NCBI GenBank assembly: GCA_002841275.1
Contig: PHET01000005.1
Location: 62,001-126,000 of the forward strand
Length of the DNA: 64,000 nucleotides
Reading direction: 5' to 3'
Origin: Actinobacteria bacterium HGW-Actinobacteria-7
GTDB lineage: Bacteria > Actinomycetota > Coriobacteriia > Anaerosomatales > PHET01
Shown here: in pieces, positions 24,551 to 39,368 of the stretch
How the letters are laid out: each line of letters starts with the position of its first letter
Position numbering within the stretch: position 1 is the stretch's first letter
Position numbers and translations under genes: made by a program
Notes under the pieces: model-generated
Seen by the model: only the letters and a program-made list of their open reading frames with translations
Told to the model about the DNA's origin: nothing
Database searches by the model: none

Positions 24551-25345
24551 TCAGTCGCGAGGCGGCTTGCCCTTGTGACACGTGCAATACACCTGGTCAT
24601 ATGAGGCCGGATGGCACTTCGCGCACGGGCGACTACGCCAGTTGTGCTCTCCCGCACTCGGGTGCGAGAAGACGAAGGACGCCCCAGACCTGTGACACTG
24701 AGAGCAGGGCCGGTTGGCAACCGCCGGATGCCCGGTGCTCGGTACCTGGTGACACGCTTCACAGGGGGTTCCGGCCATGTCGTGACAGTTGCTGCAGACC
24801 ACCGTCTTGTGCCCCGGCAGATTCGCTTTGCCAGAACCCACCTGCGCCGTCTCCCCGACGAGCCGCTTCGGGGCGACCCCCGGAGCAAAGATACCGGCGG
24901 CCTGCAGCGCAGTCTCCGAGACCGAGTGACCGGTGTCATAGTGACACTGCGCGCAGGCGCCCTTCTCGGCATGGACACCGTGGGGGAAGCCGCTCTTCAG
25001 CTTGTCAGGCACGTCAGGATGGCACCGGATGCACCGCTCGGAGGGCACATCGGGAGGAGTCGCGCGGGGGAAGGACGTGTCACCGGCGAAGTGGGCGTAG
25101 ACCTCTTTGAGGGCGACGAACTTGTGAGCGAAGCGGGCGGGAAGTCCGGGCTCGACGTGACAATCGATGCACCAGACCTCGTGGTGAGCACCGGTGGCCC
25201 ACGCGTCGTTGTACGGCTTCATCTCATGGCAGGTTGGACAGAACTGCGGTCGATCAGTGGCAAGCGAACTCGCGACGAACGCGACGATGAGCAGCACGAC
25301 GATGAGGGGAATGCTCCAGAGCATGCGACGTCTGCGATCGGACAT
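24551..25345 (-). CDS. Membrane-anchored NapC/NirT-like multihaem cytochrome c
   Basis: 264 aa. ATG at 25345 with GGGGAG 5 nt upstream. A basic N terminus and uncleaved helix (MLWSIPLIVVLLIVAFVASSLA) anchor it outside the membrane. Eight CxxCH motifs follow: CPTCH, CIDCH, CIRCH, CAQCH, CSNCH, CEACH, CSQCH and CAKCH. A ninth, shortened site CTCH (C-x-C-H) sits close to the C terminus. The opening region (FCPTCHEMKPYNDAWATGAHHEVWCIDCH) resembles NapC/NrfH quinol dehydrogenases, so it likely takes electrons from menaquinol to exported acceptors. No reductase gene is adjacent; partners may be the multihaem proteins at 33.5-40.7 kb. Confidence 0.93.
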   Translation of the reverse strand: MSDRRRRMLWSIPLIVVLLIVAFVASSLATDRPQFCPTCHEMKPYNDAWATGAHHEVWCIDCHVEPGLPARFAHKFVALKEVYAHFAGDTSFPRATPPDVPSERCIRCHPDVPDKLKSGFPHGVHAEKGACAQCHYDTGHSVSETALQAAGIFAPGVAPKRLVGETAQVGSGKANLPGHKTVVCSNCHDMAGTPCEACHQVPSTGHPAVANRPCSQCHRSGASFVFSHPSAGEHNWRSRPCAKCHPASYDQVYCTCHKGKPPRD

Positions 25346-26966: not shown

Positions 26967-29345
26967 CTACTGCGAGCGCTCGCGCACAACCCGCGCGATG
27001 TCGACACGTCCCACGGCACGAATGCCCGGCAGCAGTGACAGCCCGGTGACCGCGAACATGGCGAGACTCGCGTAGACGTAGGTGCTCGGCTTGATGTGAA
27101 GCGTGAAGATGAACAGGTCACTGGAGTAGGTTCCCATGAAACGGCTGGCCGCGAACGTGCCAACGACCAGCCCTGGGACGATACCCACCGCGGTGAGGAT
27201 GAGGTTCTCGGCGGTAACGAGCCTCGCGATGAGCGCCTTCGACATGCCGTTGGCTCGCATGCTCGCAAGTTCCGTTGAGCGTTCGGCGAGGTTCACAGAC
27301 ACCGTGTTGAAGATGAGTGCGAGGGCCATGACTCCTCCAAAGAACAGCATGAACCCGATGAACAGGTAGAAGAAGCCCATGTATTGCTGCACCAGGGCGT
27401 AAAGAACTCGTGAGTCTGTCGCCGTCGCTATCCCGTCGAGATCGCGGATATCCTGCACGACCTTAGCGCGGTCGACTCCTGGCTGGAACTTCACGAACGC
27501 GACCGAGTATCCGCGAGCAAGCACGTCCTCCGGGTCCGCCGTCCCCGCCTCGCGCAGCGCTTCTTGCAGTGTCGCAGGCGAGGCGTAGACGAACGTGCCC
27601 AGCGGTTCCTCGACTGCTCCTCCGATTGTCGCCGTGAACCGCTTGTCCAGAGACGGCGACCGCACACTGAGCCGACCGCCCACTGGAACGCCCGTCTTGT
27701 CCAGCACTGCCGCGCCCACAACGATCCGACCGGCTTGCGGGGTTCGCGCGGCACTGCCGAACGCATGCATACGCGTGTTGGCGGGATACGCGAGCAGCTG
27801 CGTGGAATACGAGCCCTTGGGCCCGCTCACCGACACATCTATCGCCGAGACCTGCTCCACCACTCGGACGCCCGGCACCGCGCGAAGCGACTCGAGCAGC
27901 GAGCCATCGAGACCGTTCTCGGGAACAACCTGTGCATCCTCGAGCTGGACCTGATTGAACTGCTTGTTCATGAGGATCTCGGTAGTATCGAGCATGCCCC
28001 ACGAGGTCAGCAGCAGCATGAGCGCGAGCACGATGCCGATCACTGTGGAGATGCTTCGCCGAGGATTACGCCCGAACCCGCGCAGCACCATGCGCCATCT
28101 GACAGGCGCACGGTTCAAGGGCGGGACGAGTACCTCCAGCAGGCTGCGCGTGCCTGATGAGACGGGGATACTGCCGCGCATCGCCTCGGCAGGATCCATC
28201 CGAACCGCCGCCCGCGCCGGAACCCACGCCGCGAGCAGTCCCGCCCCGACACCGAACGCGAGACCGATCACCGGCGTGACCGGATAGAGCTGCCTGATCG
28301 TATCGGGAATACCAAGCTCCGCCGTATAGGCGGCGGTGATCGCCCAGCCGCTGGGCACTCCGAGCGCCACCCCCAGCACAGAACCCCAACCGCCGACCCA
28401 CAAGCCGTAACCCAGATAGTGCCGCAGGACCGCATTCTGAGACAGCCCGTTGGCCCGGAGCGTTCCGATCTGATTCCGTTGTGCGTAGACCACCCGAGTC
28501 AGCAGCAGAAACGTCGCCAGGCCGGCGGCGAACAGGAACATCGCGGGGAAGAGCCACGCCATCTGCTCGAAGCCCTGAAGGTCCAGCGAGAGCGCCTTGT
28601 TCGACGGCTGGTCGACCTGCATGGTCACATCGTCTGCCCCCGCAGCATCAGCAAGGTACCGCACCTTCGCATCGGTCGCGACGCGATCGGCATCAGACGT
28701 GTAGCTGACGAGTACCTGGTGTTGCACTGCGGGTGCCGCCGCCAGCGGGACCAGCGACTCCGGCACGAACAGGACTCCGAAGTCCTCCGGCGCGGCGAAG
28801 AGCTGCTGGCTGCTTGGCGCAGGCCACAGATACTCGGCAGAGATCACTTCTCCCGCTATCGACAGCTCCTGCCACCCCCGGGCAGTCAGAAGCTCAACTG
28901 ACCCGCCGGTGGCGAGCTGGAACGTCTTCGCGAGGTGCGTCTCGGCGAGCACCTGCGCTGTGGCGCCCACAGGCGGGAAGGCGCCCGAGACCAAATCCAG
29001 CCGGTCGATCGCCGGCTGCCCGGAGTCCGGCAGTCCCACTATCCTGCCAACGAGTTCGTGGCCCCCGATCCGCAGCGGGACATCCGCCTGGATGCGTTTC
29101 TCGACCGATTCGACCCCGGCCACTCGGCTGACCTGCCCCGCAAACTGGTCACTCGCCCCGGTCACCACCACATCGGCGAATCGGAGCCGATCGTAAGTGC
29201 CGTGATAGGAGGCGTATAGGTTCTGGTAGGCGTCGTATGAGGCGCAGTACATCATGACGCCCAGCACGATCGTCACGGCTACGCTGGCGAACTGCCATCG
29301 CTGGCGGCCGATGTCGCGGCGGCGCTTGCGACCAAGCACGCTCAC
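26967..29345 (-). CDS. ABC transporter permease with two FtsX domains
   Basis: 792 aa. A first helix (FASVAVTIVLGVMMYCASYDAY) is followed by a large extracytoplasmic domain, an FtsX core of three helices (about residues 270-390) and a short linker. The unit then repeats: helix ISTVIGIVLALMLLLTSWGML, a second external domain and a second FtsX core to the C terminus. This duplicated plan matches MacB/LolC-type mechanotransmission exporters that act on substrates outside the membrane rather than pumping through it. Its GTG start overlaps the ATPase stop by 4 nt, a sign of translational coupling. Confidence 0.92.
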   Translation of the reverse strand: MSVLGRKRRRDIGRQRWQFASVAVTIVLGVMMYCASYDAYQNLYASYHGTYDRLRFADVVVTGASDQFAGQVSRVAGVESVEKRIQADVPLRIGGHELVGRIVGLPDSGQPAIDRLDLVSGAFPPVGATAQVLAETHLAKTFQLATGGSVELLTARGWQELSIAGEVISAEYLWPAPSSQQLFAAPEDFGVLFVPESLVPLAAAPAVQHQVLVSYTSDADRVATDAKVRYLADAAGADDVTMQVDQPSNKALSLDLQGFEQMAWLFPAMFLFAAGLATFLLLTRVVYAQRNQIGTLRANGLSQNAVLRHYLGYGLWVGGWGSVLGVALGVPSGWAITAAYTAELGIPDTIRQLYPVTPVIGLAFGVGAGLLAAWVPARAAVRMDPAEAMRGSIPVSSGTRSLLEVLVPPLNRAPVRWRMVLRGFGRNPRRSISTVIGIVLALMLLLTSWGMLDTTEILMNKQFNQVQLEDAQVVPENGLDGSLLESLRAVPGVRVVEQVSAIDVSVSGPKGSYSTQLLAYPANTRMHAFGSAARTPQAGRIVVGAAVLDKTGVPVGGRLSVRSPSLDKRFTATIGGAVEEPLGTFVYASPATLQEALREAGTADPEDVLARGYSVAFVKFQPGVDRAKVVQDIRDLDGIATATDSRVLYALVQQYMGFFYLFIGFMLFFGGVMALALIFNTVSVNLAERSTELASMRANGMSKALIARLVTAENLILTAVGIVPGLVVGTFAASRFMGTYSSDLFIFTLHIKPSTYVYASLAMFAVTGLSLLPGIRAVGRVDIARVVRERSQ

Positions 29346-30064
29346 CAGACCAGCTCCTCCGGTGCGACTCGCGACTCGTTGCGCTGGACCGAGACGATTC
29401 GTCCGTCCTGCAGACGGATGACCCGATCGGCCATATCGGCGATCACCGCGTTGTGCGTCACCACGAGCACCGTGCGCCCAAAATCACGCACCGCGCCATC
29501 AAGCGCTCCCAGCACGCGAACGCCCGTCTCGATGTCGAGTGCCCCCGTTGGCTCGTCGCACAGAAGCAACGGAGAGCCTTTGACCAGCCCGCGTGCGATC
29601 GACACCCTCTGTTGCTCGCCTCCGGACAGCTCTGCCGGGAAGTGGTCCGCCCGATCTCCCAGACCGACGCGTTCGAGCACTTCGGCCGTGCGCTTCTGGG
29701 CGTCCGACCCAGTGAGCTCAGCGAGCAGCGCGACGTTCTCGGCAGCCGTGAGAGCTGGAACGAGGTTGAAGAACTGGAAGATGAACCCTACGGTGTGCAG
29801 CCGGTACTCGGTACGCTGGCGTTCGTTGAGCCCTGCCAACGGCGCGCCAAGAACCTCGACCTCCCCAGCAGTAGGCGGCTCAAGAGCGCCCACCAGGTTC
29901 AGCAACGTGGTCTTGCCCGAGCCACTTGGGCCGAGCAGCACGACGAACTCGCCTTGCGGTATCTCGAAGGTGGCGTCAGCTAGCGCCGGGACCTGAGCCG
30001 AGCCCACCCCATAGGTCTTACTGAGCCCACGTGCCCGTATGGCTGCGCTCGGAGTCTCGCTCAT
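29342..30064 (-). CDS. MacB/LolD-type ABC transporter ATPase
   Basis: 240 aa. Walker A GPSGSGKTT, Q-loop in FIFQFFNLVPALTAAENV, signature LSGGEQQRVSIARGLV, Walker B LLLCDEPTGALD and switch histidine VVTHNAV are all present. The FQFFNL and EPTGALD sequences are characteristic of the FtsX-permease-associated (MacB/LolD) subfamily. It powers the permease encoded immediately downstream. First gene of a likely three-gene operon with permease and phosphoesterase. Confidence 0.95.
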   Translation of the reverse strand: MSETPSAAIRARGLSKTYGVGSAQVPALADATFEIPQGEFVVLLGPSGSGKTTLLNLVGALEPPTAGEVEVLGAPLAGLNERQRTEYRLHTVGFIFQFFNLVPALTAAENVALLAELTGSDAQKRTAEVLERVGLGDRADHFPAELSGGEQQRVSIARGLVKGSPLLLCDEPTGALDIETGVRVLGALDGAVRDFGRTVLVVTHNAVIADMADRVIRLQDGRIVSVQRNESRVAPEELVW

Positions 30065-30159: not shown

Positions 30160-31242
30160 CTAGCCGATGCGAGGAGGCAGAGGGGCGAGGTCCCGAGCAT
30201 GAAAAGCCGGTGCCGCGAAAGCGATGCCCTCGGCTCCAAGAACCTCACGTAGCCGAGAAACCCGGCTCCACTCCGGGTCGTCCTCGTCGTTGGTGCTGTC
30301 TGCGGTCCAGCAGTAGAAGAGATCCCCGAACGTCTCCCCGGCCAGCGGCACTACGTTGTTGTACCGAACACACTTCTCGATGGCGCGAAGCATGGCACGC
30401 GGATCCTTTAGCAGCAGCATCCCCTCAGCGTCGGCCTTCTCGGCGACCCGTAGCTGCTTGCGACGATGCCCGGCCGCGAAGATCTCGGCCATCACAACGA
30501 ATGCGACGCCGAACAAGAAGATCACGATGGGCAACGCGGACTGCTCGCCGGTTCGCGAGACGAACGCGCGGTCCATCGCCTCGTTACTGGCGTCGAAGCG
30601 CCGTTCGCGCCAGAGGAACAGCGGCCACAGAAGGGCAGTGACGCCGGTGGAGACGATCGTGTCACCGGAGATGAGCCGCGCAACGAGGTTGGCGAAGACC
30701 GCCCTCTGTTCGTCGAGCTCCAACCGGTCGATGAACCCGCGGGTCACCCCGATCACCGCTCTGCGTCGCCTGGCTGCGAACACGAAGGCGTTCACGTTCG
30801 AGTTCTCGATGATGTAGAGGGCGGGGGCCACCGGCATGCCGGAAGCGATTGCCATGTCCTTGAGCGCCATCTTGGTGCCCAGAAGTTCGCCCTTGGGCAC
30901 CAGCTCGGCACCGAAACGCTTGATCAGCCACTTCTCGGAACGCCGCAACGTGAATACCGTCCATGACAGCGAAGCCACAGCTACCAGCGCGCTCATCGCG
31001 ATGAAGACTGTCCCCGGGCCGACATCCATGAGGTAGACGATGGGCTGCTCCAAGCGCGCCTCGGCGAACAGCGCGAGCAAGGCACACGAGCCAAAGACAG
31101 CCAGGAACGCGTCGAACGTCACCACCGACACTAGGACGAACAGCGCGACATGCGCTGCGAGCGCCAACCTGTTGCGGTCGACACGGTTCCACAGCGGTTC
31201 ACGCTTGCGAGGGTCGGCGGAGCCCGGAATGGGAGCGTTCAC
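30160..31242 (-). CDS. Degenerate M48 (HtpX-like) membrane protein lacking the HExxH zinc site
   Basis: 360 aa from GTG at 31242, 1 bp after the cyclase stop. Topology follows HtpX/M48: helices near residues 20-60 and 80-105, the core segment KMALKDMAIASGMPVAPALYIIENSNVNAFVFAARR, GVTRGFIDRLELDEQRAVFANLVARLISGD, then two helices and a C-terminal cytosolic part. Where active M48 proteases have HExxH, this protein reads NLVAR, so both zinc histidines and the catalytic Glu are gone. A trace of the third-ligand region remains (AEKADAEGMLLLKDPRAM). It is therefore probably a non-catalytic binding or regulatory protein. Its position in an operon with a diguanylate cyclase is unusual. Confidence 0.82.
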   Translation of the reverse strand: MNAPIPGSADPRKREPLWNRVDRNRLALAAHVALFVLVSVVTFDAFLAVFGSCALLALFAEARLEQPIVYLMDVGPGTVFIAMSALVAVASLSWTVFTLRRSEKWLIKRFGAELVPKGELLGTKMALKDMAIASGMPVAPALYIIENSNVNAFVFAARRRRAVIGVTRGFIDRLELDEQRAVFANLVARLISGDTIVSTGVTALLWPLFLWRERRFDASNEAMDRAFVSRTGEQSALPIVIFLFGVAFVVMAEIFAAGHRRKQLRVAEKADAEGMLLLKDPRAMLRAIEKCVRYNNVVPLAGETFGDLFYCWTADSTNDEDDPEWSRVSRLREVLGAEGIAFAAPAFHARDLAPLPPRIG

Positions 31243-31243
31243 G

Positions 31244-32602
31244 TCAGCCCGCCACCACTCGGTTGCGGCCTTCGGCTTTGGCTTGGTAGAGGGCCGCGTC
31301 CGCGCGTGCGATGAACGCATCAGCGTTCTCTCCTCCGCCAGTGAGCGCCAGTGCCGTACCGATACTCACGGTCACGACGCAGCCGCCGCACAGCTCGGTG
31401 GACTCCATACCTTCCACTGCCGCCCGAAGACGTTCGGCAAGGACGCTCAGCTTGCCGGCGTCGGTGTCCGGAGCGACCACCAGCAGCTCCTCTCCACCGA
31501 TTCGACCTACGAGGTCATACTCCCGCACCACGCCGGTCAGCGCGCCTGCCGTCCGCCGCAGCACTTCGTCGCCTGCGGCGTGGCCATACTCATCGTTGAC
31601 GCGTTTGAAGCGGTCGATGTCGATCATCACGACCCCCGTGCCGCCGTGTCCGCTCCGGCGAGCACGCTCGAGTTCACCATGGAGTCGCTCCAGTGTGTGT
31701 TGACGGTTCCACAGCCCGGTCAGCGGATCGATCGTGGCCATGCGCTCCAAGCGCGCGTTCTCGGCCCGCAGCCTGTTTCGAAGCCACCAGATCAGGCCGA
31801 GGACTGTCACCCAGAGCCCGGAGAGTACCGTCGTCGCCACCCACAACAGCGCGATTCTGTTCGACCGTATCGCTCGGCTGAACGCGTCGTACGGCAGCGT
31901 GATGCTCACCGCCCCGCGAATATCGCCGACCTCATAGCCTGTGCTGTGGCAGCGAAGGCAGCTCGCGTCGACAATCAGCGGCCGCATGTAACGGAACACC
32001 TCCGCGGTCTTGGTCATGGTGTCCGTCTCCCAGTACTCAAGTTCACCCCGCTCGAAGGCCCTGAGCCCCTGCCGCTCCCAGGAATCCGGCGCGTTGCTCG
32101 GGTTGACCGGCCGCAGGCTCGTGAGCTTGAAGACCGAGGCCGCATGCGCAGCTACCAACTCCTCGCCGATCTCGCGTGTCATCACAGCCGGATTGCGCAG
32201 GGTGACCGGCGTCCCGTCTGAGAGCCGATCGTCTGGGTTGATCCCAAGCTCGATCAAATACGGATTCGTGAGCGTCGTCGCGCTCTTCTTGACGAGCACA
32301 CCACCCTGATGCGAGTTCCAAGCACGGGCAGCAATGATCAAGTCGGCATACGAACGCGCCTGCTCGAGCGCACCGTCGCGCACCAGACGCTCCGTCCGAG
32401 CCCCGAGCCAGATGAAGATCACGCCCGTGACCAGCGTGATAAGCACGATCAGAATGCCCGCGAAGAACCAGAGGTTCGTCGACCGACTTCGCGGTCGAAC
32501 GCCCGTCACATACGGCGTCGCTTCACGCCCTACGGCCTCGCCCGATGTCACTGACTCATCCACTGACTGACTATCGGCACCTCGCGATTCAGGCGTGAGC
32601 AT
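31244..32602 (-). CDS. Haem-sensor diguanylate cyclase (DUF3365/Tll0287-like + GGDEF)
   Basis: 452 aa. A helix (LWFFAGILIVLITLVTGVIFIWL) precedes a DUF3365-type extracytoplasmic domain (residues ~75-235) that includes one haem c motif, CLRCHSTGYEVGDIRGAVSI. A second helix (IALLWVATTVLSGLWVTVLGLIWWL) leads to GGDEF. The active-site loop is GGEEL (final Phe replaced by Leu) and the I-site REYD is present five residues upstream. Related Tll0287-like domains bind haem and are thought to sense redox state or gases. The ATG at 32602 overlaps the MBL gene stop (TGATG), so translation is coupled. Confidence 0.9.
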   Translation of the reverse strand: MLTPESRGADSQSVDESVTSGEAVGREATPYVTGVRPRSRSTNLWFFAGILIVLITLVTGVIFIWLGARTERLVRDGALEQARSYADLIIAARAWNSHQGGVLVKKSATTLTNPYLIELGINPDDRLSDGTPVTLRNPAVMTREIGEELVAAHAASVFKLTSLRPVNPSNAPDSWERQGLRAFERGELEYWETDTMTKTAEVFRYMRPLIVDASCLRCHSTGYEVGDIRGAVSITLPYDAFSRAIRSNRIALLWVATTVLSGLWVTVLGLIWWLRNRLRAENARLERMATIDPLTGLWNRQHTLERLHGELERARRSGHGGTGVVMIDIDRFKRVNDEYGHAAGDEVLRRTAGALTGVVREYDLVGRIGGEELLVVAPDTDAGKLSVLAERLRAAVEGMESTELCGGCVVTVSIGTALALTGGGENADAFIARADAALYQAKAEGRNRVVAG

Positions 32603-33303
32603 CACAGCGCCGGCGTGCGCCTGAACGCCGCCTCCAGCTGGTCCAGCGTGAACGGTGCTGCATCATGTCCCGTGTAGGTCAGCCGCGGCCGCTTCGTCAG
32701 CAGCTGCCGAATGCTCGCGTCCATCACCGCATCGTCGTGCGCGAACACCCCGCGCCGAGGCTCGGACCGGCTTCTGCCTCCCCCGCCCAGAAGATCGCCT
32801 ACCAGCGCGTCCCCCTCCTCGGTCATCACCGCGAGCGACCCTCGCGTGTGCCCGGGCAAGGGGAACACCACGGCCGACACACCGTAGTCCGACAGCGACG
32901 TCTCGCGGTCGATGACGATGTCGGCCTGGGGACCGGGAGTAGCAGAGCCCTTCGCCTGTCTCCGCCGTATCGCTCGCAGCAAGACCCTGCCAAGAAACCC
33001 GCGTGCGTGCATCTCGTCATCAAAGCCCGCCGAGCATTTCTCCTGGTCACCGGCACCAAGCGCGATGGGGGCACCGGTCGCTTCCCGTAGCGCTTCGGCG
33101 CTGCCCGCATGGTCACCGTGGCCGTGCGTGAGCAGGATGAGGGACACATCTTGAGGAGCTCGCTCCTTCTGTGCCAAGGCCGACAGAATCAGGTTGGCTT
33201 GGTCGCCGATCCCGGTATCGACAAGCACGACCTTCCGCCCAATCAGGGCGTAGGCCATGACCGTGAACGGGCCCCTTTGCACGGGTATGGGCACGAGTTC
33301 CAT
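32602..33303 (-). CDS. Metallo-beta-lactamase fold hydrolase
   Basis: 233 aa, cytosolic. Metal-binding motif THGHGDHAG (HxHxDH) near residue 60, preceded by VLVDTGIG; later ligands lie in FPLPGHTRGSLAV and YTGHD. This is the glyoxalase II-like/YcbL branch of the superfamily; the substrate (thioester, phosphodiester or other) is not determined. ATG at 33303 has GGAGG 7 nt upstream. First gene of the operon with the haem-motif cyclase and the degenerate M48 protein; it could act on a signal molecule or be metabolic. Confidence 0.9.
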   Translation of the reverse strand: MELVPIPVQRGPFTVMAYALIGRKVVLVDTGIGDQANLILSALAQKERAPQDVSLILLTHGHGDHAGSAEALREATGAPIALGAGDQEKCSAGFDDEMHARGFLGRVLLRAIRRRQAKGSATPGPQADIVIDRETSLSDYGVSAVVFPLPGHTRGSLAVMTEEGDALVGDLLGGGGRSRSEPRRGVFAHDDAVMDASIRQLLTKRPRLTYTGHDAAPFTLDQLEAAFRRTPAL

Positions 33304-33533: not shown

Positions 33534-36500
33534 TTGGGGTCTGAATCGCAGGAAATCCGCAGGGCCGCAAAGCAAGCTCCTAAGCGGTCCCGATTTTCTG
33601 CGCCCGAACCCGGTTTTGGCGGCTTCAAATCTCGCTGGTTCTCGAGGATTCGCTCGCTGCCGAAGCGGGCCATCTACGTCATTGTGGGAGCAGCCCTTGC
33701 GGCGGCCCTGATGCCCGCGCTTTCCTCGGCGTACCTGTCCACCGGACCTACCGCGGACAGGGACTGGTACTGGCAGAATCAACTGCCTCAAGGCAACGCT
33801 CTTCGGTCCATGTCGTGGGCGAACGCTTCCGAGGGCTGGGCGGTTGGCCTGTCCGGTACGGTGCTGAAGACCGCGGACGGCGGCAAGACTTGGATCGTGC
33901 AGGATCCGCAATCGACACGCGATCTGTCCGGTGTCTCGTTCGCGAGCAACACCACTGGTTGGTTGGTCGGTTCCAACGGCACCATCAGAGCGACTGCAGA
34001 CGGCGGCTCCACGTGGACAACTCAGACGGTGGGTACAACGGCGACGTTCCGTGCAGTCTCGTTCGCGAACTCGACAGTGGGCGTCGCGGTGGGCGATCTA
34101 GGTACAGCCACCTCCACGATCCAATACACGAGTGACGGTGGTGCGACGTGGCGTCCAGCGGCTACCTCAAGCACGGTGGGTCTCACCAGCGTCCAGATGA
34201 TCTCGGCGACAACCGGATGGGCTGTTGGCGGCGCAGGTGTACTGCTCAAGACCGTCGACGGCGGCGCTAGCTGGACAGCCCAGACCTCCCCCACATCCGT
34301 TGGACTGTCGGCGATCTCATTCGCACCAGGAGGCGTGGTCGGTTACTTCGTGGGCAACGCAGCACTTCCCAACTGGACGATCTACAAGACGACGAACTCG
34401 GGTGCGACATGGACAGCGATCACCGGTCTGGGGACCACCGGAGCGCTGAACCTGTTCCACGTCGACACACTCGACGCTAACAACGCGATCGTGGTCGGGG
34501 CCAACGGATCGATCCGTCGGACAACCGACGGCGGAACGACCTGGTCCAATCAGTCGCAGAACAACATCGGTGCGACGATCCTGCGAGGCGTCAAGCTGTT
34601 CGATACATCGAATGCGTATGCGATCGGCGACCTGGGTGCGATGTTCTACACCCGCAACGGCGGCGATTCGTGGTTCTCACTCCTACAGGGGTCCGCCGCG
34701 AGGTGGTACGCATGCTGGTTCACAGACATCAACAACGGCTGGGCCGTAGGCCAGAACGGCGCGATCATGCGAACCAGCGACGCCGGGCAGAGCTGGGAGC
34801 AGCAGGCCGCCGGCATCGCGACGTGGCGCGCAGTGGCCATCCCCGACGCTTCAAACGGATGGCTGGCTGGCGATGGCGGAGTCATCAAGTACACCACCAA
34901 CGGGATCGATTGGAACTCGCAGATCTCCGGTACAACCCAACAGTTGAACGGCCTGTGGTTCTTCGACAACCGCATCGGATTCGCCGTGGGCAACGGCGGC
35001 GTGATTCTCAAGACGACCAACGCAGGCAACGTCTGGCAGCAGAAGCCCTCCGGTACGACACAGGTGCTCAACGCGGCGTGGTTCGTGGATGACCGAACCG
35101 GATTCGCCGTTGGTAATGCCGGAGTGATTCTCATGACGACCAACGGCGGAAACTCATGGGCGACATCCACTTCGGGAACCACCCAGAACCTCCTTGCCGT
35201 CCGAGGTATCAACGCGAACACGATCTGGGCTTCCGGCAACAACGGCACGCTGCTCAAGACCACCAACGGCGGGACGACGTGGACCGCGCTCAGCCCGGGA
35301 GCGGGAACCAACCCGCTGCGCACGGTCAACTTCATCGACGCGAACACCGGTTGGGTCACCGGCAACTTCGGCATCGTCAGGAAGACGACTGACGGCGGTG
35401 CCACGTGGGCGACTCAGAACGCCGGCATGCCGACGTCTGTTGTGGATCCAGCCGTGAGCACCTACGGTGCCTGGTTCGCTGACGGCACGACCGGCTACCT
35501 CGTGGGAGACGCGGGTGTCGTCCGCCGAACCCTCAACGGCGGAGCAACCTGGAGCTCGCTACAGTACGGAACACTGGGCAGCCTCAACTCGCTCAGCTTC
35601 CCCGACGCGATACACGGGTGGGCCGGTGGCGCCAGCGGCAGCATGATGTACACCTCGGACGGCGGGCAGACCTGGGCCCAGCAGAAGACCGGCTCCACGT
35701 CCGCCTTCAACGGCGTCTGGATGTACGATTCGCTCCGGGGCTGGGCCGTCGGCGACAACGGAACCATCAGACGGACGGTGGACGGCGGGCTGACTTGGAC
35801 GGCCCAAGTGTCCGGCGTGACCGTCAATCTGTCGTCGGTGGCATCGGCTGACACATCGCACGCCGTCGCGGCAGGTCAAGGTGAGGTCCGGTACACATCC
35901 GACGCCGGAGCGACTTGGCTGGCCGCGAGCGTCCCGCCCACAGAACCCGTCACGGGTCTGTACATGACCGATGCGAACAACGCATGGGCCGTTGCGACCC
36001 GAGTATCGGGCAACAACGTGGTCTGGCACTCCGCCGACGGCGGCAACATGTGGGCACCACAGACCACCCCTGCCAACGCAAACCTCTGGGACATCTATTT
36101 CCGAGACGCCAACACGGGTTACGCGTGTGGTGACTCTGGGGTCATCCTCAAGACAGTCAACGCCGGAGCCACCTGGATCCGCGTACCCGCACCCACGACT
36201 CTTCCTTTCTACGGCATCCGTTTCACCGATGCGAATACCGGTCTGGCCGTTGGTGGTGGCGGCGTCATTGCAATCACAGGCGATGGCGGCAGCACCTGGA
36301 CCCTGAAGTCCTCCGGCACGAATCAAGCACTCAACTCGGTCGCATTCAACGGGTCGGGCCGCGGCACGATCGTCGGAGCCAGCGGAACGATTCTTGGCGG
36401 CGCGAGCGTGGCGGCACCGGTCACCACGTCAAGCGTGGTTCCGCCGGTCCCTAACGGAGATAACGGCTGGTACGCGGGCACGGCCCCGATCATTACATTG

Positions 36501-39368
36501 AATTCGAGTGTACCGGGCGCCACCACCTACTACGGGTGGACCTCCTCGGCAGGGCCCTTCAACACCTATTCGATACCGTTTGCCGCCATAGAGGGCATGC
36601 GGACGCTCTACTTCTACTCGGCCGACACCGCGGGCAACGTCGAGACCGTTCACAGTCAAGTGCTCAAGACCGACGTCACCAGCCCGACTGCCCCGGCGGA
36701 TGTCGCCACGACGACGGTGTCCACGTCGACAGCCACCCTCGCGTGGACCGCCGCAAGCGACGCCGTGTCGGGCTTCGATCGCTACGAGGTCTTCCTCGAC
36801 GGAGCCTACGTGACCAGCGCGAGTTCGGAATCAGCGATTCTGATCAACCTGATTCCGAGCACGCCCTACTCGGTGCAGGTTCAGACCGTCGACAAGGCAG
36901 GCAACCGCTCTGCGCTGAGCGCACCGGTGAGCTTCGTCACCGACGGGCTTACCACCACCCCGTACACTACCGTGCTCGGGGCGAATCCGCTCGATCCCGA
37001 CGGCGCTAACGACTGGTACGTCACCACGCCTACCGTGACGTTGGCGGCACTCCCCATGAGCGGCGGCCCCAGGACGACCTACTTCAGTTGGACCGACGCT
37101 GCGGGCCCGTACACGACCTACACGGATACGCTCACTCCGTCACCGGGTGCCGCGACTCTGTACTACTCGACCCACGATGACCTGGGGACTCGCAGCGACG
37201 AGCCGACCCAGTCTCGGCAGTTCAAGGTCGATACCCAGACCCCTGCACCGCCATCGGTGACCGCCTCCGCCACCGACTATCAGGCAATACACGTGAGCTG
37301 GCCCGCCGTGGCCCAGACGCCCAGCGGCATCGACCACTACGACGTCTACGTTGATGGGAACCTGCACAGCACCGTGAACACCGTGTCGGTCGACATCGTG
37401 GGGCTGGCATCGACCACGACCTTCTCGATAACCGTCATCTCGGTGAACTCGGCTGGCACCACGTCGACTCCGTCGACGCCTGCCATGGTCACCACGCCTG
37501 TCGCACCACGCCCGGCGGCCCCAAAGGCGGTTCTCGCGATAGCCCCGACCGGCGAATCGGTCTACCTGAATTGGATGCCCAGCGAAAGCGCGATCGGTGC
37601 CGTGGACTACCACGTGTGGCGCTCGGATAACGGCGTGACCTACAGCGTTGTCGCGACGACCACCGGCGGACTCTACGACTGCGCCTACATCGACCAGGGG
37701 CTGCGTTCTTCGACGCGCTACTGGTATGCGGTCTCGACCGTGGATGATCGCGGCGAGAGCACCCTGTCCGACACTTCGACCACAACGTGGAACTACACGG
37801 CGCCGGTCACCACGCGTCCCAATCGGATTCTGGGTCTCAGCGCCGTGAACCTTGACCACACCATCTACCTGTCCTGGCAACCTGCCGCCAACCCTGCGGT
37901 CGTGGGCTATTGGATCAGACGAGGCTCGGCGAGCATGTCAACGATGACGACCCTTACGGCGCTTCCTGTTACGTCGACAGCGTTCTTCGACTTGACGGCC
38001 TTGAACGGTGAGAAGTACTACTACCAGGTTGCAGCAATCGATGCCTCCGGTGTCGCCGGCACTCCCTCAATCGACCTTGAGGCCAGTCCGATCGCTCCGT
38101 TCCCCGCAAATCAACCGCACCCGCACGAGTTCGGCAACGAGTCGGCCTGCATCTGCCATGCCACGCACAGCTCAACCACCCTCGAACCGCTGGTTCGCTT
38201 CCCGGGTGCCGAGAAGAACACGATCTGCCGCACCTGCCACTCACCGGTCGTCTCCTTCGTCGAGTTCGTCGATCCCCTGCTCAAGTCAAAGCACCCCCAG
38301 GGCGCTGTAGAGACCGAAACCGATCCCTTCAGCTGCGTCACCTGCCACACACCGCTGATTCCCGCAGGCGCGCCACTCGACAACCTGATGCGTGTGAACT
38401 CGAATACGCCGTGCGCAGTCGTGACGGATACGCCGCCAGGCAACGGCTTCTGCTACTCATGCCACGGTCCGGGTTCGACGCTGGCTCAGGGCGATTTGAC
38501 CGTCTTCGAGTCCTCGGGACACCGAACAGTCCCAGCCCCTCCGACAGGGGCCAACATCACGTGCGACACCTGCCATGAGTCGCATTCGTCGCGCAATACG
38601 CGACTGCTCAAGTACGAAGGATTCATGGTATGCATGCAGTGCCACACGGCATCGGCCAGTAACCCCGACCAAGTGGATATCCTGAGCCGCCTCAACCTCA
38701 ACGAGGGCTCCAATACCAAACACCCGATTCTGCCTGAGGACCAAGCGAACGGCTCTCGTATGCAGTGCCAGAACTGCCACAACACACACACCACGACCAA
38801 GAGTTTCCCCTTGGTCGACCCACACGACCCCAGTCCGTCGGGAACCTGGACGACTCCGCGAAGCGACGAGAAGGCATTCTGCTTCCGCTGCCACAACGGT
38901 TTGACGCTGCCCACGAGCATCGAGACCAGCCCTTGGGCCGAACCGGTCCTCGGGCGCAACAGTGCGACCACGACAAGGGACATCCAATCCGCCTACGCGG
39001 TGAACACACACGGGTTCGCCGCCCGAAGCGGGTCCACCACGACCACAGCCCACCTCCGCCCAGACATGGGATACGCCTATGGCACTGTGCTGGAATGCCG
39101 TGCTTGCCACGACCCACACGGCACGGCCAACGATGATGCAATCCTTGACACAGTCGTTTCGGCTGACGGCACCAAGAAGATCTACGGCGTGCTCACCTAC
39201 AAGATTCCTAGCGGCGGCAAGGACCTTCGCTACTTCTGCATCACCTGCCACCTGTGGGACTCCGCGTCACACGACTCGAGGGCAGGAACGAGCACCGCGA
39301 CGTTCCCCATGAACTGCAAGGCTTGCCACGGACATACAGCGGGGACAGTCCCCGGCGAGAACTTCTAG
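33534..39368 (+). CDS. Giant exported YCF48-type beta-propeller / FN3 / decahaem cytochrome fusion
   Basis: 1944 aa. TTG start at 33534 with GAGG 8 nt upstream; no in-frame ATG occurs before the end of the signal segment (RAIYVIVGAALAAALMPALSSA, residues ~46-67). Residues ~80-965 hold about 21 repeats of ~42 residues with the YCF48/BNR pattern (e.g. GWAVGLSGTVLKTADGGKTW), enough for three seven-bladed propellers. Residues ~965-1520 are Ig-like and fibronectin-III domains. The last ~420 residues carry ten CxxCH motifs (from CRTCH at 38228 to CKACH near 39319), several as CxxCHxxH, plus one short C-x-C-H (CICH). It should be an extracellular electron-transfer or surface redox protein. The next cytochrome gene follows after 10 bp. 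Confidence 0.93.
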   Translation: MGSESQEIRRAAKQAPKRSRFSAPEPGFGGFKSRWFSRIRSLPKRAIYVIVGAALAAALMPALSSAYLSTGPTADRDWYWQNQLPQGNALRSMSWANASEGWAVGLSGTVLKTADGGKTWIVQDPQSTRDLSGVSFASNTTGWLVGSNGTIRATADGGSTWTTQTVGTTATFRAVSFANSTVGVAVGDLGTATSTIQYTSDGGATWRPAATSSTVGLTSVQMISATTGWAVGGAGVLLKTVDGGASWTAQTSPTSVGLSAISFAPGGVVGYFVGNAALPNWTIYKTTNSGATWTAITGLGTTGALNLFHVDTLDANNAIVVGANGSIRRTTDGGTTWSNQSQNNIGATILRGVKLFDTSNAYAIGDLGAMFYTRNGGDSWFSLLQGSAARWYACWFTDINNGWAVGQNGAIMRTSDAGQSWEQQAAGIATWRAVAIPDASNGWLAGDGGVIKYTTNGIDWNSQISGTTQQLNGLWFFDNRIGFAVGNGGVILKTTNAGNVWQQKPSGTTQVLNAAWFVDDRTGFAVGNAGVILMTTNGGNSWATSTSGTTQNLLAVRGINANTIWASGNNGTLLKTTNGGTTWTALSPGAGTNPLRTVNFIDANTGWVTGNFGIVRKTTDGGATWATQNAGMPTSVVDPAVSTYGAWFADGTTGYLVGDAGVVRRTLNGGATWSSLQYGTLGSLNSLSFPDAIHGWAGGASGSMMYTSDGGQTWAQQKTGSTSAFNGVWMYDSLRGWAVGDNGTIRRTVDGGLTWTAQVSGVTVNLSSVASADTSHAVAAGQGEVRYTSDAGATWLAASVPPTEPVTGLYMTDANNAWAVATRVSGNNVVWHSADGGNMWAPQTTPANANLWDIYFRDANTGYACGDSGVILKTVNAGATWIRVPAPTTLPFYGIRFTDANTGLAVGGGGVIAITGDGGSTWTLKSSGTNQALNSVAFNGSGRGTIVGASGTILGGASVAAPVTTSSVVPPVPNGDNGWYAGTAPIITLNSSVPGATTYYGWTSSAGPFNTYSIPFAAIEGMRTLYFYSADTAGNVETVHSQVLKTDVTSPTAPADVATTTVSTSTATLAWTAASDAVSGFDRYEVFLDGAYVTSASSESAILINLIPSTPYSVQVQTVDKAGNRSALSAPVSFVTDGLTTTPYTTVLGANPLDPDGANDWYVTTPTVTLAALPMSGGPRTTYFSWTDAAGPYTTYTDTLTPSPGAATLYYSTHDDLGTRSDEPTQSRQFKVDTQTPAPPSVTASATDYQAIHVSWPAVAQTPSGIDHYDVYVDGNLHSTVNTVSVDIVGLASTTTFSITVISVNSAGTTSTPSTPAMVTTPVAPRPAAPKAVLAIAPTGESVYLNWMPSESAIGAVDYHVWRSDNGVTYSVVATTTGGLYDCAYIDQGLRSSTRYWYAVSTVDDRGESTLSDTSTTTWNYTAPVTTRPNRILGLSAVNLDHTIYLSWQPAANPAVVGYWIRRGSASMSTMTTLTALPVTSTAFFDLTALNGEKYYYQVAAIDASGVAGTPSIDLEASPIAPFPANQPHPHEFGNESACICHATHSSTTLEPLVRFPGAEKNTICRTCHSPVVSFVEFVDPLLKSKHPQGAVETETDPFSCVTCHTPLIPAGAPLDNLMRVNSNTPCAVVTDTPPGNGFCYSCHGPGSTLAQGDLTVFESSGHRTVPAPPTGANITCDTCHESHSSRNTRLLKYEGFMVCMQCHTASASNPDQVDILSRLNLNEGSNTKHPILPEDQANGSRMQCQNCHNTHTTTKSFPLVDPHDPSPSGTWTTPRSDEKAFCFRCHNGLTLPTSIETSPWAEPVLGRNSATTTRDIQSAYAVNTHGFAARSGSTTTTAHLRPDMGYAYGTVLECRACHDPHGTANDDAILDTVVSADGTKKIYGVLTYKIPSGGKDLRYFCITCHLWDSASHDSRAGTSTATFPMNCKACHGHTAGTVPGENF

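Follow-up and report, generated by a model that had tools for sequence, protein, structure and literature searches.

A tightly packed gene array with a predicted haem-c diguanylate cyclase and a displaced pseudo-M48 protein in a genome of the Anaerosomatales

The window, that is, the whole stretch of 64,000 nucleotides of Actinobacteria bacterium HGW-Actinobacteria-7 analysed here, carries a real, tightly packed array of three genes encoding a metallo-β-lactamase (MBL)-fold hydrolase, a haem-c cyclase of an ordinary kind and an unusual, conserved pseudo-protease that is displaced in this genome; the array is not a conserved module. We hold with fairly high confidence that the three genes are probably co-transcribed and represent a lineage-specific assembly, composed of a cyclase of the sCache_heme-GGDEF kind, a relocated non-peptidase M48 protein and an ordinary MBL-fold hydrolase.

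Organisation of the array

The genes of the array and their neighbours are listed in Table 1. The interval 31,244–33,303, to which the first-pass annotation assigned all three genes, holds the hydrolase and cyclase genes, and the pseudo-M48 gene lies outside it. The tight packing described there was confirmed on the minus strand. The stop codon of the MBL gene and the start codon of the cyclase gene overlap in TGATG (an in-frame alternative GTG of the cyclase is located at 32605), and a gap of 1 bp separates the cyclase stop at 31244 from the pseudo-M48 gene, presupposing its GTG start at 31242. The open M48 frame includes an upstream ATG, at 31320, and a start there would overlap the cyclase gene by 77 bp.

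Table 1. Coordinates of the array, its neighbours and the sensor segment in the window
Feature	Position	Strand	Details
MBL-fold hydrolase (Lactamase_B)	32602..33303	-	233 aa, ATG 33303, PF00753
sCache_heme-GGDEF diguanylate cyclase (predicted)	31244..32602	-	452 aa, ATG 32602, PF11845 + PF00990
Extracytoplasmic haem-c sensor segment (predicted), residues 66-245	31868..32407	-	stretch used for sensor alignment
Pseudo-M48 (HtpX/Ste24-like fold, without HExxH)	30160..31242	-	360 aa, GTG start
ABC transporter ATPase	29342..30064	-	95 bp downstream of pseudo-M48, same strand
FtsX-like permease, same ABC system as ATPase	26967..29345	-	
YCF48-repeat/fn3/10-CxxCH multihaem protein	33684..39368	+	1894 aa, divergent neighbour of MBL gene

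The M48 and cyclase frames are packed as closely as coupled genes, which counts against the reading as a lineage-specific assembly. Overlaps of 4 bp occur in 10 of the 52 same-strand neighbour pairs that script-made gene calls gave in three segments of the genome, 64, 16 and 18 kb long, and the tight spacing by itself is ordinary for this genome. The array may be a recently formed but functional operon, and the ABC transporter ATPase gene is a possible continuation of its transcript. The scan for promoters and terminators returned no promoter-like and two terminator-like sites on the plus strand versus 2.0 expected. The GC profile (0.61–0.67) is without a break, and the plasmid search gave a single distant match to Rhizobium. 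The host genome of 2.53 Mb, in 38 contigs, is rated 100% complete. Several genes downstream of the array, on the same strand, an open reading frame of 257 aa with eight CxxCH motifs was also detected (window about 24551-25324, minus strand).

Domain composition and conservation of the cyclase

The DUF3365-like external domain with a CxxCH site, the I-site and the GGEEL signature ascribed earlier to the cyclase are all present. The PF11845 family (Tll0287-like, formerly DUF3365) matches residues 74–237 with 84.3 bits against a Pfam cut-off of 24.1, and PF00990 (GGDEF) matches residues 289–448 with 145 bits, above the Pfam cut-off; the cyclase has no match to the HAMP domain. The motifs are CLRCH at 215–219, the RxxD I-site at 360–363 (REYD) and GGEEL at 369–373. 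Hydrophobic segments at about 40–71 and 249–274 flank the sensor, as revealed by hydropathy, the topology being predicted. Cysteines occupy positions 215, 218, 405 and 408, and those of the sensor are the two of CxxCH only. Besides the cyclase, no PF11845 protein turned up in the window genome, which also yields four matches to the cytochrome c assembly family PF01578.

Among 23 aligned cyclase sequences CxxCH, R360, D363 and GGEE are invariant, so a chance occurrence of these motifs, CxxCH included, was rejected. D328, K333, N336, D345, G369, G370, E371, E372 and K442 are likewise invariant in 23 of 23; the active-site roles of D328, K333, N336 and the others we take to be those of PleD. The fifth residue of the signature is Leu in three of the 23 sequences (the window cyclase and 2 of its 22 orthologues) and Phe in the rest. 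GGEEL was rejected as a sign of inactivity, since Leu is also found in these two orthologues and the catalytic residues are intact. Judged by these residues, the protein is probably a diguanylate cyclase with working catalysis.

Comparison with known haem sensors

Fusions of DUF3365/Tll0287 domains to c-di-GMP enzymes, MCPs and kinases are named sCache_heme in the accessible part of a 2026 preprint (PMC12889525). The statement of the first-pass annotation that such a system was not described as such therefore fails for the sensor, fusions of sCache_heme to c-di-GMP enzymes being among those described in that part. Like the proteins presented there, the window cyclase combines PF11845, with CxxCH between membrane helices, with a c-di-GMP enzyme and has no sensor cysteine beyond CxxCH. 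The same portion of the preprint gives the lack of an axial Cys as a trait of a signalling-fused, NO-binding example, and Cys/His ligation for stand-alone proteins. The window cyclase, which is known here by sequence, differs from these proteins in the absence of a HAMP match and in its host, since the domain is called rare or absent in Actinomycetota in the text available (PMC12889525). Elsewhere in the phylum PF11845 is indeed infrequent, exceeding the cut-off in 16 of 396 genomes, 8 of the 16 belonging to one family of the same class. A Coriobacteriia genome of another family (G336) has eight PF11845 matches.

A profile match to Tll0287 (5b82) covers the haem region and the next strand of the sensor (3.8e-6). 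Tll0287 is a stand-alone protein with Cys/His ligation, and the Cys of that ligation has no counterpart in the window sensor. The Geobacter haem-c MCP sensors GSU0582 and GSU0935 have in common with this sensor a c-haem Cache/PAS-like periplasmic sensor, with a weak profile match to 3b47 in the haem region (E 0.11). Their output is an MCP domain, whereas that of the window protein is GGDEF, and the equivalence of the Met ligand is putative.

Counting the window genome, 23 of the 61 genomes searched in the order encode a full-length protein of this type (sensor and GGDEF). A relative of the haem sensor without a GGDEF match (G037:C2:41769-42488; 39% identity over query 54-291) possibly carries another output domain. 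By its predicted domains, the window cyclase joins the sCache_heme-GGDEF proteins as a new member; the domain combination is known in kind, and the present proteins form a new, order-wide group.

Proposed mechanism and signal

The cyclase would be anchored in the membrane, with a c-type haem attached at CLRCH of its extracytoplasmic domain. A change in the ligation or redox state of the haem, with NO or redox potential as candidate signals, would pass along the second membrane helix, reach the GGDEF dimer and alter the synthesis of c-di-GMP, and the product would inhibit the enzyme at the RxxD site. Gating by redox or NO is likely from the sequence features, from which we infer the haem attachment, the signal and the direction of the response.

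A sensor of redox potential and not of NO, with a His/Met ligation switch as in GSU0582/GSU0935, has in our estimate slightly less than an even chance. Met141, conserved in 21 of 23 cyclase sequences, could be the sixth haem ligand by analogy with Met60 in GSU0935: it stands 74 residues from the haem motif, similar to the 80 residues between Met60 and Cys140 given in the accessible part of PMC8396549. The order also contains isolates that reduce Fe(III) and have a large number of multihaem cytochromes, according to the available portion of PMC9686372. However, the equivalence of Met141 and Met60 is putative, because the PDB alignments stopped short of the region of this candidate distal ligand, and NO is bound by a signalling-fused domain without an axial Cys in the one tested example given in the accessible text of PMC12889525.

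The MBL-fold hydrolase

The protein matches PF00753 with 80.8 bits, and its metal-binding motif HxHxDH..H..D..H is intact (HGHGDH 60, GHT 151, GDLL 169, GHD 212). It shares the family and the intact motifs with glyoxalase-II-like and B3-like MBL-fold hydrolases, but scores well under all the NCBIfam equivalog cut-offs listed. Close orthologues were found in 4 of 61 genomes, and in 4 of 69 genomes of the order at E<=1e-40; elsewhere, where seen, they sit among other genes. We take the protein for an ordinary hydrolase that depends on metal and is seldom found in the order.

Gene order and evolutionary history

The three genes had been proposed to form one redox- or gas-responsive c-di-GMP system, with conservation of gene order across related genomes as the test. 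The comparison included 20 cyclase and 20 M48 loci of at most 17 kb each, some ending at contig ends, and 39 of the 40 lie in genomes of relatives within the order of the window genome (Anaerosomatales-like Coriobacteriia), the window genus being represented by the window genome alone. One of the M48 loci (L131) is the second pseudo-M48 copy of the window genome itself; the nearest M48-relative loci are nearly all from metagenome-assembled genomes of Coriobacteriia. One pseudo-M48 locus (L162) is on a contig filed as Geobacter sp., which may be mis-binned. No two of the MBL, cyclase and pseudo-M48 genes were found together in any of the 40 loci, each searched with all three proteins, and the neighbourhood is thus not conserved. 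A different GGDEF protein, of another sensor type, is located about 3 kb from the MBL orthologue in G044, on the opposite strand and without a match to the haem sensor, and was counted as no support for a module.

The distributions also differ. In comparison with the counts of the cyclase and the hydrolase given above, the pseudo-M48 protein is present at E<=1e-30 in 51 of 69 genomes of the order; the class outside the order (227 genomes) yielded no match at that threshold. Moreover, it has another regular position: of the 38 genomes analysed for this, a subset of the 51 with the pseudo-M48 family of the window protein (family A), 33 carry hisE or hisI on the strand of the pseudo-M48 gene and at most 700 bp upstream of it. 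Two of the five exceptions are at contig ends (G047, G010), two have intervening genes but are near his (G006, G007), and the window genome has no such linkage. It is the one informative case of a pseudo-M48 gene outside the his-trp interval. The gene downstream of pseudo-M48 in relatives is variable and often encodes an exported protein; the 19 loci listed, including the paralogue locus of the window genome, have six trypsin-like proteases, two M28 peptidases and two PQQ-like propellers.

The phylogenetic analysis placed the window M48 protein in a set (100/98) with both other members of its family and two further genomes, as expected under vertical descent. The window cyclase groups with the sequences of two genomes from a different family (100/99), apart from its own family, and this placement reflects either transfer or hidden paralogy. 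The topologies of the two trees differ, and therefore the three genes did not travel together.

The proposed functional module was rejected by this comparison of 40 loci: it is not supported because no two of the genes co-occur, their distributions are unlike and the pseudo-M48 gene is his-linked in relatives. The overlap and 1-bp spacing on one strand and the position of a haem sensor beside multihaem genes speak for one system, but the disagreement of the trees and the frequency of 4-bp overlaps in this genome are further points against it, and we consider such a system quite unlikely.

Under the favoured reading of a lineage-specific assembly, the pseudo-M48 gene, vertically inherited in the order and normally following hisE or hisI, would have moved behind the cyclase gene in the window lineage. 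The his operon of the window genome is complete, from hisG to hisE, and in place of a pseudo-M48 gene its hisE-trpE interval has two genes, for a YCF48/fn3/multihaem protein of 1697 aa and for an NHL protein of 358 aa. Within this genome, no protein is closer to the 1894-aa multihaem protein adjoining the MBL gene than the 1697-aa one. This arrangement is suggestive of an exchange of positions between the pseudo-M48 gene and the multihaem paralogue. The genome contains two large YCF48-repeat/fn3/multihaem paralogues, the one in the window and the one between hisE and trpE, at L182:5701-10794 (minus strand).

The pseudo-M48 family

The first-pass description of this protein as a pseudo-peptidase was borne out: the M48 fold is matched, and the zinc ligands and catalytic Glu are lost. 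Pfam gave no significant match for the window protein, PF01435 is matched by 13 of 18 aligned family members, NCBIfam gave weak HtpX matches (best 1.4e-14), and among PDB sequences HtpX (3cqb) is matched best (3.1e-5). The AF2 model (pLDDT 81.3) found 3cqb and 4aw6 in Foldseek. VIA-align gave Z 12.2 to Ste24p (rmsd 6.3, 220 aligned), 11.9 to BepA (rmsd 3.4, 145 aligned) and 9.9 to the HtpX domain (rmsd 3.0, 98 aligned); Foldseek/VIA-align rows outside M48 are below a Z of about 8.

Membrane helices are common to the protein and to HtpX, Ste24 and ZMPSTE24 of M48, but HExxH of the latter corresponds to NLxxR, and the Glu that serves as third ligand to Ala, Ser or Tyr in an ungapped register. 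The window protein, which reads NLVAR at this site, lacks HExxH, and so do 29 of 29 orthologues, matches that start past the first 160 query residues being excluded. The position of the third zinc ligand, compared with four HtpX proteins of the order, is Ala or Ser in family A and Tyr in the G000 paralogue; a register shift is possible at this site because a Glu stands one residue further. The slot QRAVFANLxAR is invariant in the 18 aligned members (the window protein and 17 loci, with divergent paralogue rows and some partial rows left out). A decaying remnant without function, for which the loss of all catalytic residues would speak, is very improbable and was rejected on a dN/dS of 0.05–0.25 in 6 of 6 close pairs (purifying selection), and the presence in 51 of 69 genomes and the invariant slot also stand against it.

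A second, more divergent paralogue family of the QRAVIATLTAR type was observed at L131:7470-8609 (plus strand) and L163-L181. It is found in many relatives, HExxH is absent in all readable members, and the window genome has one copy of each family. Some pseudo-M48 proteins, such as L127:7861-9594 and L132:7272-8960 (both plus strand), are extended at the C-terminus, with additional hydrophobic segments and an end that resembles a Cys4 zinc ribbon. Of 61 genomes, 47 carry a strong match to PF01435 (E<=1e-25) that would mark a canonical HtpX, HExxH having been read in four of these 47; the window's family, with its four genomes (G000-G003), has no such match. The searched literature on inactive HtpX and HtpX pseudoproteases contained no description of this pseudo-HtpX family, which is apparently undescribed there. 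The window protein would serve envelope proteins or envelope proteases in the membrane, as a scaffold or by binding them as clients, without proteolysis.

Implications

A bolder reading, which we regard as improbable, is that two HtpX pseudo-families, in the searches made almost restricted to the order, came to serve in the membrane without cleaving proteins, by binding clients or by controlling exported proteases, that one family became fixed behind hisE, and that the window's copy was recruited behind the haem-sensing cyclase. The pseudo-families would then be the only HtpX-like proteins left in the window's family, where no canonical M48 protein is detectable, and the envelope state and c-di-GMP could be co-expressed.

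The comparison corrects an appealing interpretation of the array as an operon: close packing of genes in one genome does not make a module. It adds a widespread group of predicted haem-c diguanylate cyclases to an actinobacterial order with iron-reducing isolates. The order-wide, his-linked pseudo-HtpX family could reveal the role that an M48 membrane protein performs without proteolysis.
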